Assembly (NCBI GenBank): GCA_903885795.1
Contig: CAISJV010000073.1
Location: 1-64,000 of the forward strand
Source of the DNA: an uncultured delta proteobacterium
GTDB lineage: Bacteria > Desulfobacterota > Syntrophia > Syntrophales > UBA8958
Reading direction: 5' to 3'
DNA length: 64,000 nt
The stretch's first letter is position 1, and every line of letters starts with the position of its first letter. The notes below the pieces were generated by a model. It had not been told where the DNA came from, searched no databases, and saw only the letters and a list, made by a program, of their open reading frames with translations. Positions 50,705 to 56,788 of the stretch are shown here, piece by piece. The position numbers and the translations under genes are program-made.

Positions 50705-51457
50705 TTACTTTCCATAGATGACCTCTTTGAGGAACAGCCCCTGAGGCGGCGCCGTCATGCCGGCCAGCTTCCGGTCGCGACCTTTCAGGATGGCCACCAG
50801 TTCCTCATGCGGCCTTTTTCCTCTTCCCACCTCGACCAGGGTGCCGACAATCGTTCTGACCATATACCGCAAAAAGCCGTCCGCCTCCACAAAGATTTTG
50901 ATTAATGGATGTTCAGCCGACAAAGAATTCAGAACATCGATTCTTTTTATCTCCCTTTCAAAGGAAATCACATCTGTATGGGTGGAGCTGAAGGAGGTAA
51001 AATCATGACGGCCGATCAAACAAGCGGCTGCCTTCCGCATGAGATCAAGATCCAGGGGACAGTGGATTATCCAGGCATGGTGGCGATAAAGGACGGTCCG
51101 GATGGGGCTGTTGAATATCTGATAGAGATAAACCTTGCCTTTGGCGTCGATCCGGGCATGATAGTCTTCATCCGCTTCCTCCAAAGATTTCAAGACGATG
51201 TCGGCGGGCAGGAGGCTGTTGATTCCCTTCCAAAGATTACTGGTGGGGATCCCACAGATGGTTTTGAAGTGGGCAACTTGAGCGAGGGCGTGCACCCCCG
51301 CATCGGTCCGCCCGGAACCGATGACATTTACTTTCTCCCCAGTGATGACGGCAATCTTCTCTTCGAGTACCTCCTGGATGGAAAGGCCATTTTTCTGGCG
51401 CTGCCAGCCATGATAGCCGCTTCCGTCGTATTCGACTACTATCTTCAGATTACGCAT
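50705..51457 (-). CDS. truA: tRNA pseudouridine synthase A
   Basis: A 250-aa TruA protein with the catalytic Asp in GSGRTDAGVHA and start LKIVVEYDGSGYHGWQRQ. It makes pseudouridine 38-40 in tRNA anticodon stems. It lies 9 bp downstream of pgk and is followed by rfbD, so the three genes form one transcript. Confidence 0.96.
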   Translation of the reverse strand: MRNLKIVVEYDGSGYHGWQRQKNGLSIQEVLEEKIAVITGEKVNVIGSGRTDAGVHALAQVAHFKTICGIPTSNLWKGINSLLPADIVLKSLEEADEDYHARIDAKGKVYLYQIFNSPIRTVLYRHHAWIIHCPLDLDLMRKAAACLIGRHDFTSFSSTHTDVISFEREIKRIDVLNSLSAEHPLIKIFVEADGFLRYMVRTIVGTLVEVGRGKRPHEELVAILKGRDRKLAGMTAPPQGLFLKEVIYGK

Positions 51458-51466
51458 GATGCGAGG

Positions 51467-52660
51467 CTATATGGCGCCGCCGCAGGCGTCGAGAGCCGCG
51501 ATAGCCGGGAGATCCTTGCCCTCCAGCAATTCCAGGGAGGCCCCGCCACCCGTGGAGATGTAGGTGATTTTGTCGCTTTCTCCGGTCTTATGGACAGCCA
51601 CATCCGTATCACCGCCGCCGACGATGGTCATGGCATAGGAATTGGCGATGCTGTGAACCATGGCCGCCGTTCCGCGTCCGAAGGCGTCGATTTCAAAGAC
51701 TCCCATCGGTCCGTTCCAGACGATGGTCTTGGCGTTGGCCAGGGCCTCGGTGAAAAGGGTGATCGTCGCCGGGCCGATGTCCAGGCCCATCCATTGGCTA
51801 TTCATTTCCTGAATGGGGACGATCTTGGTTTCCGCTTCAGCGCTCATTTCCTGGGCCATGACGCAGTCCACGGGGAGATAGAATTTTACCCCGAGCTCAC
51901 GGGCGGTTTTCATGACTTCCGCTGCCATGGGCATCAGGTCTTCTTCTACGATGGACTTGCCGACCTCGTATCCTGCCGCTTTCAGAAAGGTGAAAGCCAT
52001 GCCGCCTCCGATAATCATTTTATCGACTTTTTTAATCAGGTTGACAAGGGCCTCCAGTTTGCCGGAGACCTTCGACCCGCCGATGATAGCCACGAAGGGC
52101 CGGGCCGGCTTATCCAGACATTTCTGGAAGTAATTGATCTCCTTTTTCATCAGAAAGCCGCCGCCGCACTCCTTGACAAATTTCGTGATCGCGACGTTGG
52201 ACGCGTGGGTCCGGTGGGCGTTGCCAAAAGCGTCATCGATATAGACATCGGCATAGACGGCCAATTGGCGGGCGAATCCTTCGTCATTCTTCTCCTCTTC
52301 GGGATGAAACCGGAGGTTTTCCAGGAGGATGACGTCGCCGGACTTCATGTTGTCTATGAGGGCCTTGACACTGTCCCCGATGCAATCCGTGGCCATGATG
52401 ACATCCTTGTGAAGAAGTCGGGAAAGCCTTTTGGCCACGGGACAGAGACTGAATTCCGGTTTGACCTTTCCCTTTGGGCGGCCCAGGTGGGAGATGATAA
52501 TGATCTTGGCCCCTTCGTCGAGGGCGTAATTGATCGTCGGCAGGGTCGCCCGGATCCGGCTGTCATCGGTGATATTCTGGGAGCTGTCGAGAGGGACATT
52601 GTAGTCGAAACGGAGCAGGACTTTTTTGTCTTTCAGGCTGAATTGGTCGATAAATCTCAT
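51467..52660 (-). CDS. pgk: Phosphoglycerate kinase
   Basis: 397 aa from the ATG at 52658-52660, supported by AGGAGG 5 bp upstream (a start at 52675 would contain it). Signatures are [10 protein letters not shown] at the N-terminus, the substrate segment SHLGRPKGK, and GGGDTDVAV near the C-terminus. It interconverts 1,3-bisphosphoglycerate and 3-phosphoglycerate. Confidence 0.97.
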
Positions 52661-52980
52661 TGATCCTCCTTGCATCTTTTTGTCAAACAGGATATGATGC
52701 GTCCCGATTAAGACAAAAATGTTTTAAAATACAATAAGTTAGACAATATCAAGATAAGGATTCGGGAATTTTTCGATGCATCTGTTGACCGCATTAGCAA
52801 TCCCATAGGAAAACCTTACGGGACGCTTCTTTACATGAGAAGGTCTACCTGGTCAAGACGGAATTGACGGCTTCGCAAATAGTCCCCAAATCAGCCTCTC
52901 CCATAGATAGAGGCTGGAGCATTTGAATTCAATGTACTTAACGTACGAGAATAAATCGGAAAGAAGGAGAGTGTAGGTTT
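52661..52980. promoter_or_regulatory. Divergent control region pgk / carboxyltransferase with degenerate repeat
   Basis: 320 bp between divergent starts. It holds what looks like a decayed copy of the palindromic element (GACGGCTTCGCAAA at 52866-52879 and GTAC-TTAAC-GTAC at 52934-52946) and a hairpin AGCCTCT (52893-52899) / AGAGGCT (52909-52915) in the likely leader of the carboxyltransferase mRNA. No sigma-70 box pair was convincing. A strong AGAAGGAGAG lies before the ATG at 52981. Confidence 0.5.
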
Positions 52981-54552
52981 ATGGCAAAAGAACAAGGAAA
53001 AGGAATGACGGAAGAGAAGATCCGTGTATTCGAGGCTCGCAGAGAGGTCCTGAAATCAATGGGCGGCGAAAAGATGATTGCCAAACAGCACGAACTGGGC
53101 AAGATGACGGCCCGGGAGCGGCTGGCGATGTTTTATGATGAAGGGACCTTCCAGGAAGTCCAGTTATTTGTGAAGCACCGCTCCACCCTGTTTGGTCTTG
53201 ACAAAAAGGAAATCAACGCTGATGGCGTCATCGTCGGTTTCGGCAAGGTCAACGGCCGGACCGTTTTTGCGGCGGCTCAGGATTTCACCAGCTCCGGCGG
53301 GAGTCTTGGGGAGATGCACTCCAAGAAGATCTGGAAGATCATGGATATGGCCCTCGATGCGAAAAGGCCCTTTGTGTCTATGAATGACTCCGGCGGCGCC
53401 CGGATACAGGAAGGTGTGCCGGCCCTGGAAGGCTACGGAGGCATTTTCTATCGCAACACCATAGGTTCCGGCTACATTCCCCAGATCACCGCCATCATGG
53501 GACCCACCGCCGGCGGCGCCGTTTATTCTCCCGCCCTTACGGACTGGGTATTCATGGTCAAGAAGAGTTCCTACATGTATATTACCGGTCCCGATGTCAT
53601 CAAGGCCGTCATCGGCGAAGAAGTGACCCATGACGATCTGGGCGGCGCCATAGCCCATGCCACCAAGAGCGGTGTCTGCCATTTCGCCACGGAAAACGAT
53701 GAAGACTGCATCAACAGGGTAAAGATGCTCCTGTCTTACCTGCCCGACAGTTGCCACGGCCCCCTGCCCATCGCTGCCTGTACGGACAGCGCCGACCGGG
53801 ATTGTCCGGAGCTCGATACGATCATCCCCGACCGAGGGACCCGGGGTTACGATATGAAGCAGGTCGTCATGGCCGTGGCGGACAATAATGAAATATTCGA
53901 ACCCCACGAGCTGTGGGCGAAAAACATGTTTGTGGCCTTCATCCGCATTATGGGCCAGCCCGTCGGCGTCATCGCCAACAACCCCAAATTCGGGGCCGGC
54001 GTCCTCGACGTCAACGCCTCCGACAAGGCCTCCCGTTTCATCCGTTTCTGCGATGCCTTCAACATTCCCCTCCTGACCTTCTCCGACGTCCCCGGCTACA
54101 TGCCCGGAACGGCACAGGAATGGTCCGGCATCATCAGTCACGGGGCGAAGTTGCTCCACGCTTACGCCGAAGCAACCGTGCCCAAGATCACCGTCGTGAC
54201 GCGGAAGGACTACGGCGGCGCCTACATCGGTATGTGCAGCAAGCAGTTGGGAGCCGACTATGTCATGGCCTGGCCGTCGGCGGAAATCGCCGTCATGGGC
54301 GCCGAAGGGGCCTGTAACATCGTTTATCGCCGAGAGATTAACGAGGCCGCCGATCCCGCCGCCAGGAGGACGGAGCTGGTCGCCGCCTATGAGGAGCAGT
54401 TCAACAATCCTTATTTTGCTGCCTCCATGGGCATCATCGAAGAGATCATCGCCCCCCGGGAGACCCGGAAGCGCGTCGCCGCTATTCTCGACGCCCTGAA
54501 GGACAAGACGCAGGTCCGCTTGCCAAAGAAACACAATAACATCCCGCTTTAA
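52981..54552 (+). CDS. Acyl-CoA carboxyltransferase (biotin-dependent carboxylase) subunit
   Basis: A 523-aa carboxyltransferase of the propionyl-CoA carboxylase beta / methylmalonyl-CoA decarboxylase alpha type. It has the N- and C-terminal crotonase-like halves, with the oxyanion regions SGGARIQEGVPALEGYGGIF and TRKDYGGAYIGMCSK. The acyl-CoA substrate (propionyl, methylmalonyl or glutaconyl) is not certain from sequence. A biotin carrier and membrane or biotin carboxylase partner is needed but is not adjacent in the window. It is a monocistronic-looking unit with a terminator at 54632. Confidence 0.9.
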   Translation: MAKEQGKGMTEEKIRVFEARREVLKSMGGEKMIAKQHELGKMTARERLAMFYDEGTFQEVQLFVKHRSTLFGLDKKEINADGVIVGFGKVNGRTVFAAAQDFTSSGGSLGEMHSKKIWKIMDMALDAKRPFVSMNDSGGARIQEGVPALEGYGGIFYRNTIGSGYIPQITAIMGPTAGGAVYSPALTDWVFMVKKSSYMYITGPDVIKAVIGEEVTHDDLGGAIAHATKSGVCHFATENDEDCINRVKMLLSYLPDSCHGPLPIAACTDSADRDCPELDTIIPDRGTRGYDMKQVVMAVADNNEIFEPHELWAKNMFVAFIRIMGQPVGVIANNPKFGAGVLDVNASDKASRFIRFCDAFNIPLLTFSDVPGYMPGTAQEWSGIISHGAKLLHAYAEATVPKITVVTRKDYGGAYIGMCSKQLGADYVMAWPSAEIAVMGAEGACNIVYRREINEAADPAARRTELVAAYEEQFNNPYFAASMGIIEEIIAPRETRKRVAAILDALKDKTQVRLPKKHNNIPL

Positions 54553-54631
54553 AAGGTTCTTTTCACGAGGATACAAGGGGATTGTTTTTTGGTGGTGCAG
54601 GTCTTGACTTGCAACGCGATTAAGTAACACT

Positions 54632-54668
54632 GGGGCTGTCTTCCCGATGGGGTGGACAGCCCCTTTTT
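54632..54668 (+). terminator. Rho-independent terminator after the carboxyltransferase gene
   Basis: GGGGCTGTC (54632-54640) / GACAGCCCC (54655-54663) followed by TTTTT (54664-54668). It lies 80 bp after the stop and just before the convergent thioesterase stop at 54692. Confidence 0.88.
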
Positions 54669-54691
54669 GCATGCAAATCTGGGGATACCAT

Positions 54692-55153
54692 CTAAATGAA
54701 CTTTGGGGGCAGGACGAGGCCGCCTGCAAGGCCGAAACCCGGCAGGACTATCAGGGTTGATGTCCCGTGGGCCACAACCCGTCCCTTGGCATCTTTGACC
54801 GTCGCCTCGGCGAGGCCGAGGGTCTTGCCCATCTTGATTCGCTTGCCTTCCGCCGTCAGCTTTCCTGTCTGGACGGGGGCCAGGTAATTGACCTTCAGAT
54901 CCACGGTAGTGATCCCCATCCCCTCCTCCAGTTCGCAGAAAGCAGACCAAAATGACGCCGTATCGATGGCAGAGGCATAGACCCCGCCGTGAACATAGCC
55001 GAAGGCCTGGAGGTGTTCCGTGTCCACTTCCAGATCAACGACAGCGCAGCCGATGTCCATCTCCCGGATAGTCATGGACATATGCATGAAAAAAGGACTG
55101 TTGCTAACTGTCTCCCGGACGGCCTGCACATAAGCTGGATTTAGTTGTTTCAA
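54692..55153 (-). CDS. PaaI-type thioesterase
   Basis: A 153-aa hot-dog-fold protein with the PaaI signature GYVHGGVYASAIDTA. It hydrolyses acyl- or aryl-CoA thioesters in the cytoplasm, releasing CoA. Start support: AAGGAGGTAACTTT upstream. It fits a role in relieving CoA sequestration during aromatic or fatty acid degradation. Confidence 0.85.
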   Translation of the reverse strand: MKQLNPAYVQAVRETVSNSPFFMHMSMTIREMDIGCAVVDLEVDTEHLQAFGYVHGGVYASAIDTASFWSAFCELEEGMGITTVDLKVNYLAPVQTGKLTAEGKRIKMGKTLGLAEATVKDAKGRVVAHGTSTLIVLPGFGLAGGLVLPPKFI

Positions 55154-56203: not shown

Positions 56204-56352
56204 TAAAGCAATTTTCAAAGCTCTCTCCTCATGCACAATATGCGGGAGGCTACATCATGAAAAGACTAAGATCAAACTGTTTTTCTTGACCCCCTGCCCG
56301 GTCCTGATATTCACCTTGAGATTAAAACGCTGCTGTGTTAATTGGCCACCCT

Positions 56353-56568
56353 ATGGAGATTGTTACTAACGATACGACCCCCTGTGGTCGGTGCGGCAAA
56401 TTGCCCGCGGTGATTTACTGCGACGGTTGCCAGATTGCTTTGTGCATGGAGTGCCGTACCTTTGATCTTTGGGGTTATGGGTGCGGTCATGTGGATCCCA
56501 AGGCTTTCTGCTGCAATTGTTTACATGACCCTGCAGTTAATCCCTATTGTGGTTTACCGAACGAGTAG
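56353..56568 (+). CDS. Cysteine-rich mini-protein, tandem copy 1
   Basis: A 71-aa protein rich in cysteines in the pattern CxxC-x8-CxxC-x4-CxxC-x9-C-x8-CxxC (Cys11 to Cys56), plus three further cysteines. The pattern suggests two zinc sites, like a B-box or other zinc knuckle. No signal peptide or membrane segment. ATG at 56353 is chosen over a GTG at 56335. The second copy follows 4 bp after its stop. Function unknown. Confidence 0.7.
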   Translation: MEIVTNDTTPCGRCGKLPAVIYCDGCQIALCMECRTFDLWGYGCGHVDPKAFCCNCLHDPAVNPYCGLPNE

Positions 56569-56572
56569 CCGT

Positions 56573-56788
56573 ATGAACCATATTTGCGGTGTCTGTGGCC
56601 GTGATACTGTTTTTACTGACTGCGCCGATTGCCGGATCCAACTGTGTGATCGTTGCGCCCGCTTCGAATTGCTGGCGGAAGGTTGCGGTACTGTAGTCCC
56701 CGTCTACTTCTGCCCTTCCTGCGTGAGCAACCCTCTTGCCAATCCCAACGCCATCTTCTGGCAGATGAAGGGAAAAAACGGATTGTGA
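56573..56788 (+). CDS. Cysteine-rich mini-protein, tandem copy 2
   Basis: A 71-aa paralogue of the preceding gene, with exactly the same cysteine spacing (Cys5 to Cys50) although most other residues differ. The start at 56573 is inside a longer open frame from 56435 that overlaps copy 1; the short start gives equal length and aligned cysteines. The two probably work together as a dimer or pair. It is too short for most gene finders and has no recognised function. Confidence 0.68.
   Translation: MNHICGVCGRDTVFTDCADCRIQLCDRCARFELLAEGCGTVVPVYFCPSCVSNPLANPNAIFWQMKGKNGL

Follow-up and report, generated by a model that had tools for sequence, protein, structure and literature searches.

Tandem 71-residue cysteine-rich proteins of a Syntrophales bacterium belong to a lineage-enriched family of predicted two-zinc fingers

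A tandem pair of small cysteine-rich genes

Protein A and protein B are small cysteine-rich proteins encoded one behind the other in the window, by which we mean the whole stretch of 64,000 nucleotides that was analysed. The locus contains the following features:

54692..55153, minus strand: gene for a 4HBT hot-dog thioesterase (Pfam PF03061, E 2e-15; relatives by blastp)
56334..56340, plus strand: TGTGTTA element, candidate part of a promoter, 12 nt before the start of A
56353..56568, plus strand: protein A, 71 aa, predicted two-zinc finger of the A clade with a borderline zf-B_box match (frame and homology)
56458..56508, plus strand: hairpin of A, residues 36-52, candidate docking surface (modelled strands 36-42 and 46-52, and conservation)
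56573..56788, plus strand: protein B, 71 aa, predicted two-zinc finger of the B1 clade, starting 4 bp past the stop of A
56660..56710, plus strand: hairpin of B, residues 30-46, with a different motif (modelled strands 30-36 and 40-46, and conservation)

Each frame comprises 71 codons plus a stop, and 4 bp lie between them, in agreement with the place, strand, length and gap that a first-pass annotation had given for both. GTG or TTG alternatives upstream would lengthen A or B; the ATG starts match the N-termini of relatives. The gene 3' of the pair encodes a 540-aa protein read as phosphoenolpyruvate carboxykinase. In the source genome (G000; 4.0 Mb in 95 contigs), a search with A as query at E ≤10 retrieved only A and B as members. 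The nearest named records to protein A come from Syntrophus sp. metagenome-assembled genomes (94% and 92%).

Both proteins carry the pattern CxxC-x8-CxxC-x4-CxxC-x9-C-x8-CxxC exactly. Across all six frames, the window contains this nine-cysteine pattern just twice, and it never arose in 200,000 shuffles of the residues of B. A and B are identical at 23 of 54 positions (43%; BLASTP, E 1e-13), and their likeness is therefore homology. The earlier description of identical cysteine spacing among diverged residues is borne out. Both proteins are under purifying selection: dN/dS is 0.03-0.26 in all 15 comparisons of A and 0.08-0.37 in 12 of the 15 comparisons of B1, the other three yielding no dS.

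Elsewhere in the window, long open frames occur at 50909-52663 (plus strand, 584 aa) and 53164-54729 (minus strand, 521 aa). Opposite them lie a gene read as phosphoglycerate kinase and a carboxyltransferase gene (Pfam), to which the frames are antisense, probably as shadows of biased codon usage.

Members and distribution of the family

A total of 134 members were collected and sorted into classes A (50), B2 (36), B1 (12), D (nine), C (seven) and A2 (six), with 14 unsorted. The four CxxC pairs are kept at exact spacing in 125 of the 134 and all nine cysteines in 105; the profile used to collect the members came from the family itself, a choice that favours such spacing. Because the four pairs are kept more widely than the full set of nine cysteines, the core consists of eight ligands, probably forming two zinc sites; we infer both the zinc and its geometry from the cysteine spacing. 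The conservation of spacing in relatives, proposed as a check by the first-pass annotation, thus holds for the four pairs. The nine-cysteine pattern is present in A, B and 30 of the 36 B2 members and in none of the seven class C and nine class D members, and the ninth cysteine is non-essential. The equal length of 71 aa is likewise a property of the pair in the window, whereas elsewhere B1 proteins have 67-78 aa (n=9) and class A proteins 66-90 aa (48 of 49). The pattern count leaves out L235, which is 100% identical to L105 over 12,001 nt, and includes L174 (G007:C106), an A2-type gene present as a broken copy with an internal stop.

Class D proteins (L186-L189, L191-L193, L195 and L196) have 88-99 aa, and all nine come from family f52. 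Their C-terminal tail resembles VFGLEDVTDMVNQ...FKIKLKI, and in most loci the gene is flanked by nadB-like and rplU/rpmA/obg-like genes.

At E ≤0.001, matches to A were found in 55 and matches to B in 57 of 100 genomes (the source genome and 99 relatives). A profile of A retrieved members in 21 of 395 genomes of the phylum (E ≤1e-5). Scanning 84,980 species with two A-hairpin peptide patterns gave 47 confirmed loci, with titles naming Syntrophus, Smithella, Smithellaceae, Syntrophaceae, Syntrophales, Syntrophobacterales or delta-proteobacteria, apart from one Pseudomonadota and one Spirochaetota. The contig titled Spirochaetota (L068) is 99.5% identical over 3246 nt to the Deltaproteobacteria contig L069 and is probably mis-binned or mis-named. 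The family is thus known here from Desulfobacterota, above all Syntrophales; outside the phylum, coverage was that of the A-hairpin pattern scan alone, and B-type or distant members may occur elsewhere. NCBIfam placed neither A nor B near any cutoff. We conclude that A and B belong to a little-known, lineage-enriched family of stand-alone proteins with the characteristics of two-zinc fingers.

The survey of Burroughs et al. 2011 is said to be the main one on prokaryotic two-zinc treble clefs, and the family may already be described there. Literature searches found nothing joining the B-box zinc finger with Syntrophus, nothing on a bacterial B-box zinc finger with Deltaproteobacteria, and nothing on zf-B_box, bacteria and CoA-transferase together. 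In a paper on benzene-degrading Desulfobacterota (PMC13101534), zinc and B-box are absent from the main text.

Age and co-occurrence of the pair

In a phylogenetic tree of the members, which has few columns relative to its rows, A, A2 and three unsorted members form one clade (support 99/95), and B1, B2 and eight unsorted members form another (98/87). Within these and beside them, B1 alone (100/99), A2 (100/100) and D (99/90) are supported, and C more weakly (81/83). L235 and L174 were left out of the tree. A recent tandem duplication was rejected, as A and B fall in separate supported clades that each include many genomes. The two clades must therefore have diverged long before the lineage of the window arose, and judged by the tree A and B are ancient paralogues.

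The clades tend to occur in the same genomes. Among the 100 genomes, 36 have both, 15 only A, seven only B (three of them weak) and 42 neither (Fisher p 8.5e-9, with relatedness ignored). Adjacency is rarer. A and B lie side by side in 10 of the 36 genomes with both clades, seven in the family of the window (f1) and three in f17, with 2-12 bp between them. Where the genes are in tandem they are probably co-translated, and the single mRNA proposed from the 4-bp gap in the window is plausible.

In the genus of the window, the tandem is present in five of eight genomes. The other three (L066, L067 and L069) have kept A with no B1 behind it, and tblastn searches of these with B returned only A itself and weak scattered matches. 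The carboxykinase-like gene is still found behind A in all three (87-91% identity). An obligate pair was rejected, given A without B1 in these three genomes and in other families. The proposal that the pair is selected as a unit is consequently upheld only in part: the clades co-occur in genomes, but adjacency is confined to two families and absent from three of eight same-genus genomes. The first-pass annotation had named a second frame missing in close strains as a finding that would speak against the pair, and these three genomes show it in part. In G060, two A-type genes separated by 26 bp form another tandem, distinct from that of A and B (L247:3460-3914).

Predicted fold

AlphaFold2 models of A and B were confident, with mean pLDDT of 90.6 and 90.0 and pTM of 0.77 and 0.75. 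In Foldseek searches, the best E for A was only 1.1, and B found Rim2 (2a20) at E 0.039 with a probability of 0.99. On realignment, A matched RIM 2cjs_C (Z 5.2, rmsd 2.6, 49 aligned), FYVE 1x4u (Z 5.0, rmsd 5.5, 61 aligned) and Rim2 2a20 (Z 5.0, rmsd 2.5, 51 aligned), and B matched 2a20 (Z 5.7, rmsd 2.5, 51 aligned), 2cjs_C (Z 5.3, rmsd 2.6, 50 aligned) and 1x4u (Z 5.0, rmsd 3.4, 57 aligned). These matches are weak. All Z values are below 8, ribosomal proteins enter the list of B from Z 4.3 down, and scores this low may reflect no more than a common arrangement.

Profile searches point to related folds. The nearest solved chains were B-boxes, of CONSTANS (E 0.0081) and TRIM63 (E 0.022-0.024), aligned mostly over the first half. 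Among class C proteins, L164 aligned with Pfam FYVE over nearly its full length (E 0.0025; 18.3 bits against a cutoff of 27.8); for L229 the Pfam run covered the first 70 of 118 codons. On account of the RIM and FYVE structural neighbours, the B-box profiles and the FYVE match of L164, the predicted fold is that of a cross-brace finger with two zinc sites, which resembles FYVE/RIM and B-box without belonging to either. Selection for a metal-binding fold, as the first-pass annotation had suggested, is well supported by the conserved CxxC pairs, the low dN/dS, the confident models and the likeness to two-zinc fingers, the metal being deduced.

Relation to known zinc-protein families

FYVE domains carry four CxxC pairs and a basic lipid-binding signature, R(R/K)HHCR. 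A and B share the four pairs, as FYVE spacing is usually described, and FYVE/RIM proteins (PF01363, PF02318) are the best structural neighbours of both models, although weak ones (Z 5.0-5.7). B additionally gave a weak match to FYVE_2 (E 0.36). However, all family scores fall under the Pfam cutoffs, neither A nor B has a PF01363 row at E ≤10, and the basic signature is absent, its place being taken by CDGC in A and CADC in B. A and B are moreover bacterial and only 71 aa long, unlike FYVE/RIM proteins.

The B-box is a RING-like cross-braced two-zinc fold (PMC4999995) that is said to occur also in prokaryotes, its usual ligand motif being CC/HCCCCHH, ending in two histidines (both as given in PMC4506424). 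A resembles the first half of the B-box domain PF00643, up to the third CxxC, scoring 24.2 bits against a Pfam cutoff of 24.1, and 45 of the 52 aligned A and B1 members match it at E ≤0.1. The match of A nevertheless covers the profile only as far as position 30 of 42. For B, PF00643 is not listed at E ≤10, and only the related ANCHR-like B-box appears (E 2.6). In both proteins the last ligand pair is CxxC instead of two histidines, which departs from the motif as PMC4506424 words it.

Small zinc fingers that stand alone are also described in Haloferax volcanii, where abstracts report one-domain mini-proteins, many per genome, with two C(P)XCG motifs for one zinc ion (PMC10716476, PMC6562870). 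They resemble A and B in being small and free-standing and differ in having two such motifs where A and B have four CxxC pairs.

Neighbouring genes and CoA enzymes

Class C has the clearest gene context. In five of its seven loci (L164, L181, L228, L229 and L230, from f17, f14 and f52), a 3-hydroxyacyl-CoA dehydrogenase (3HCDH) gene follows on the same strand after 60-278 bp (blastp), with CoA-transferase genes behind it in the same order; the neighbours in L181 were also confirmed by Pfam. Another class C locus, L182, had none of the reference families nearby. In L190 (L190:6083-7700), from a fourth family, a 317-aa protein begins with the zinc domain and continues with a CoA_trans domain at residues 94-310 (E 1.8e-59), and a second CoA_trans gene (E 3.7e-42) overlaps the end of the fusion gene. 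The fusion was found in one genome only, and the zinc domain had no match in three other genomes of that family.

Among tandem A-B1 loci, all ten have a 4HBT relative within 1.2 kb (blastp); in f1 it is on the opposite strand, and in f17 it precedes the pair by 16-53 bp on the same strand. The two families may share this link by descent. Two same-genus loci with A alone are also near a 4HBT relative, at 1595 bp in L066 and 1030 bp in L067. In family f6 there are seven B2 loci with a family III CoA-transferase relative on the opposite strand, 165-590 bp upstream (L144 by Pfam), and the B-clade member L177 lies amid CoA-transferase genes (blastp; two by Pfam).

A general acyl-CoA neighbourhood was a first impression that failed a random-place control. 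Acyl-CoA genes lie within 700 bp in 21 of 123 loci; random places drawn from these loci gave 14.0 ± 2.9 (maximum 22), and the excess is not significant. Neither is a context-weighted count (1.99 of 31 against 1.44 ± 0.49), and the distances show no peak close to members. This enrichment test is blunt either way, as the clustering chained some unrelated loci and the control places came from the same loci. The acyl-CoA reference set comprised 11 sequences of chosen families, with thiolase and acyl-CoA dehydrogenase named by eye. L235 was left out of the enrichment test, and L198 (100% identical to L091 over 11,325 nt) and L068 had been left out before the neighbour comparison.

Many A and B2 members have other neighbours, read as lon/clpX, lnt, serA/purA, nitroreductase and radical SAM genes. 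Some A members are flanked by genes read as lon/clpX on one side and lnt/prfB on the other, a radical SAM gene (family by Pfam) coming immediately after the A gene in some loci, and others are beside genes read as serA and purA. Of 49 class-A rows, 12 (among them two near-duplicates) have the TGTGTTA element no more than 30 nt from the start, with different genes upstream. A sigma-70 scan upstream of A returned no site, and TGTGTTA fits no consensus tried.

DUF35 proteins such as SSO2064 and PhlB are zinc-ribbon/OB-fold proteins found in operons or fusions with acyl-CoA enzymes, for which a role in acyl-CoA delivery is proposed in PMC2954200. The present family is comparable as a small zinc protein linked to acyl-CoA enzymes, in five of seven class C loci and one further fusion. 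For the tandem A-B1 pair the comparable gene link, to 4HBT, is suggestive, and across the family it is not significant. Unlike DUF35 proteins, A and B are modelled with one hairpin and no OB-like barrel, and Pfam gave them no DUF35 row.

Conserved hairpins and possible functions

Between the third and fourth CxxC pairs lies a hairpin whose commonest letters are FDLWGYGCGHVDTKxF in A and FELLAEGCGTVVPxYF in B1. After the last CxxC, an NP motif is present in 52 of 52 aligned A and B1 sequences. The hairpin varies less than the other non-cysteine positions of the core, at 0.95 bits against 1.76 in A (101 of 20,000 permutations as low) and 1.56 against 2.67 in B (one of 20,000), and is thus the more conserved part. 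The sample consisted of BLAST-found members, 43 in the A clade, of which 41 were used, and 56 in the B clade, of which 53 had exact spacing and 51 unique cores. An earlier version was circular, as classes and loci had been partly defined from hairpin letters; in the BLAST-only repeat the result for A was weaker but kept.

It is mainly because the core is shared and the hairpins are clade-specific that we propose partner docking. The explanation that we favour, tentatively (probability about 0.45), is that A and B are structural two-zinc fingers acting as protein-docking accessory subunits. Each protein would fold round two zinc ions held by the four CxxC pairs, in a cross-brace like that of FYVE/RIM and B-box. 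The zinc core would be a rigid holder for the beta-hairpin, which is nearly fixed within a subfamily and different in A and B. Docking of this hairpin onto a partner protein, the most likely mode of action, would make A and B accessory or adaptor subunits, each with a partner of its own or with its own face of a shared complex. The partner of class C would probably be the CoA-transferase/3-hydroxyacyl-CoA dehydrogenase system; for A-B1, the leading guess is an acyl-CoA enzyme encoded close by, for instance the 4HBT thioesterase. Class C thus gives good grounds for a CoA-enzyme partner; for the A-B1 pair such a partner is suggested, and the data on the whole family lend it no support.

The same fingers could be small regulators that bind DNA, RNA or RNA polymerase and adjust expression, like TraR or the haloarchaeal mini-proteins. 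Free-standing small zinc-finger proteins with regulatory or stress roles have been published (PMC9239242, PMC6562870, PMC2253796). A trans-acting factor would fit the varied genomic contexts; PARP zinc finger 1 and ribosomal proteins occur lower in the fold lists of A and B, and A2 has a mean net charge of +1.5 (n=6). With the zinc sites uncounted, however, mean net charges of -1.4 for A (50) and B1 (12) and -0.4 for B2 (36) are unfavourable for binding nucleic acids. The best fold matches also speak against this role, as RIM and FYVE fingers bind proteins or lipids, and we consider it unlikely. Nine cysteines in 71 residues, the ninth in the hairpin and present in all 41 A-clade cores and in 47 of 51 from the B clade, might instead indicate zinc buffers or thiol redox sensors, whose cysteines release metal or form disulfides under stress. 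This seems improbable, considering that buffering would not need the invariant W, Y, G, H, D and K of the A hairpin or the NP motif, and that classes C and D do not show the nine-cysteine pattern. Nor were metal-transport genes recognised beside members, by eye and with Pfam on 11 neighbour or fusion proteins only.

CxxC pairs are able to bind iron, and the hosts, to judge by their genus names, are probably strict anaerobes, in which an iron-sulfur cluster or mononuclear iron could serve electron transfer among many redox enzymes. The Pfam matches listed for A, B, 52 A and B1 sequences and eight other members are mostly to zinc-finger families, with no ferredoxin or rubredoxin family among them, and the models of A and B resemble zinc fingers; an iron protein is accordingly still less probable. 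Two small co-directional genes 4 bp apart have a layout like that of toxin-antitoxin systems. A mobile or toxin-antitoxin-like pair is nonetheless very improbable: A had no match in plasmid or phage records, on which a mobile origin was rejected, and in viral contigs the one stretch that matched the pattern was not confirmed by a mixed alignment. Same-genus loci, moreover, share flanking genes, and A commonly occurs without B1.

Possible implications for syntrophic metabolism

Two-zinc cross-brace fingers are best known as docking modules in eukaryotic proteins. A stand-alone bacterial family whose diverged paralogues occur in many genomes, barely recognised by Pfam, would show such fingers at work outside ubiquitin and membrane traffic. 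More speculatively, and on balance doubtfully, syntrophic acyl-CoA degraders may have expanded their own FYVE-like two-zinc fingers as interchangeable docking subunits on CoA-transferases, thioesterases and related enzymes. If so, the hairpin of each paralogue would specify its enzyme, a small adaptor code by which acyl-CoA enzyme assemblies would be built or regulated, and the A-B1 tandem would supply, as a unit, two adaptors to one of these assemblies. The gene order and fusion of class C make one version of the docking idea directly testable in vitro. Syntrophic bacteria live near the energetic limit, and small subunits that steer CoA enzymes would bear on the control of their pathways.
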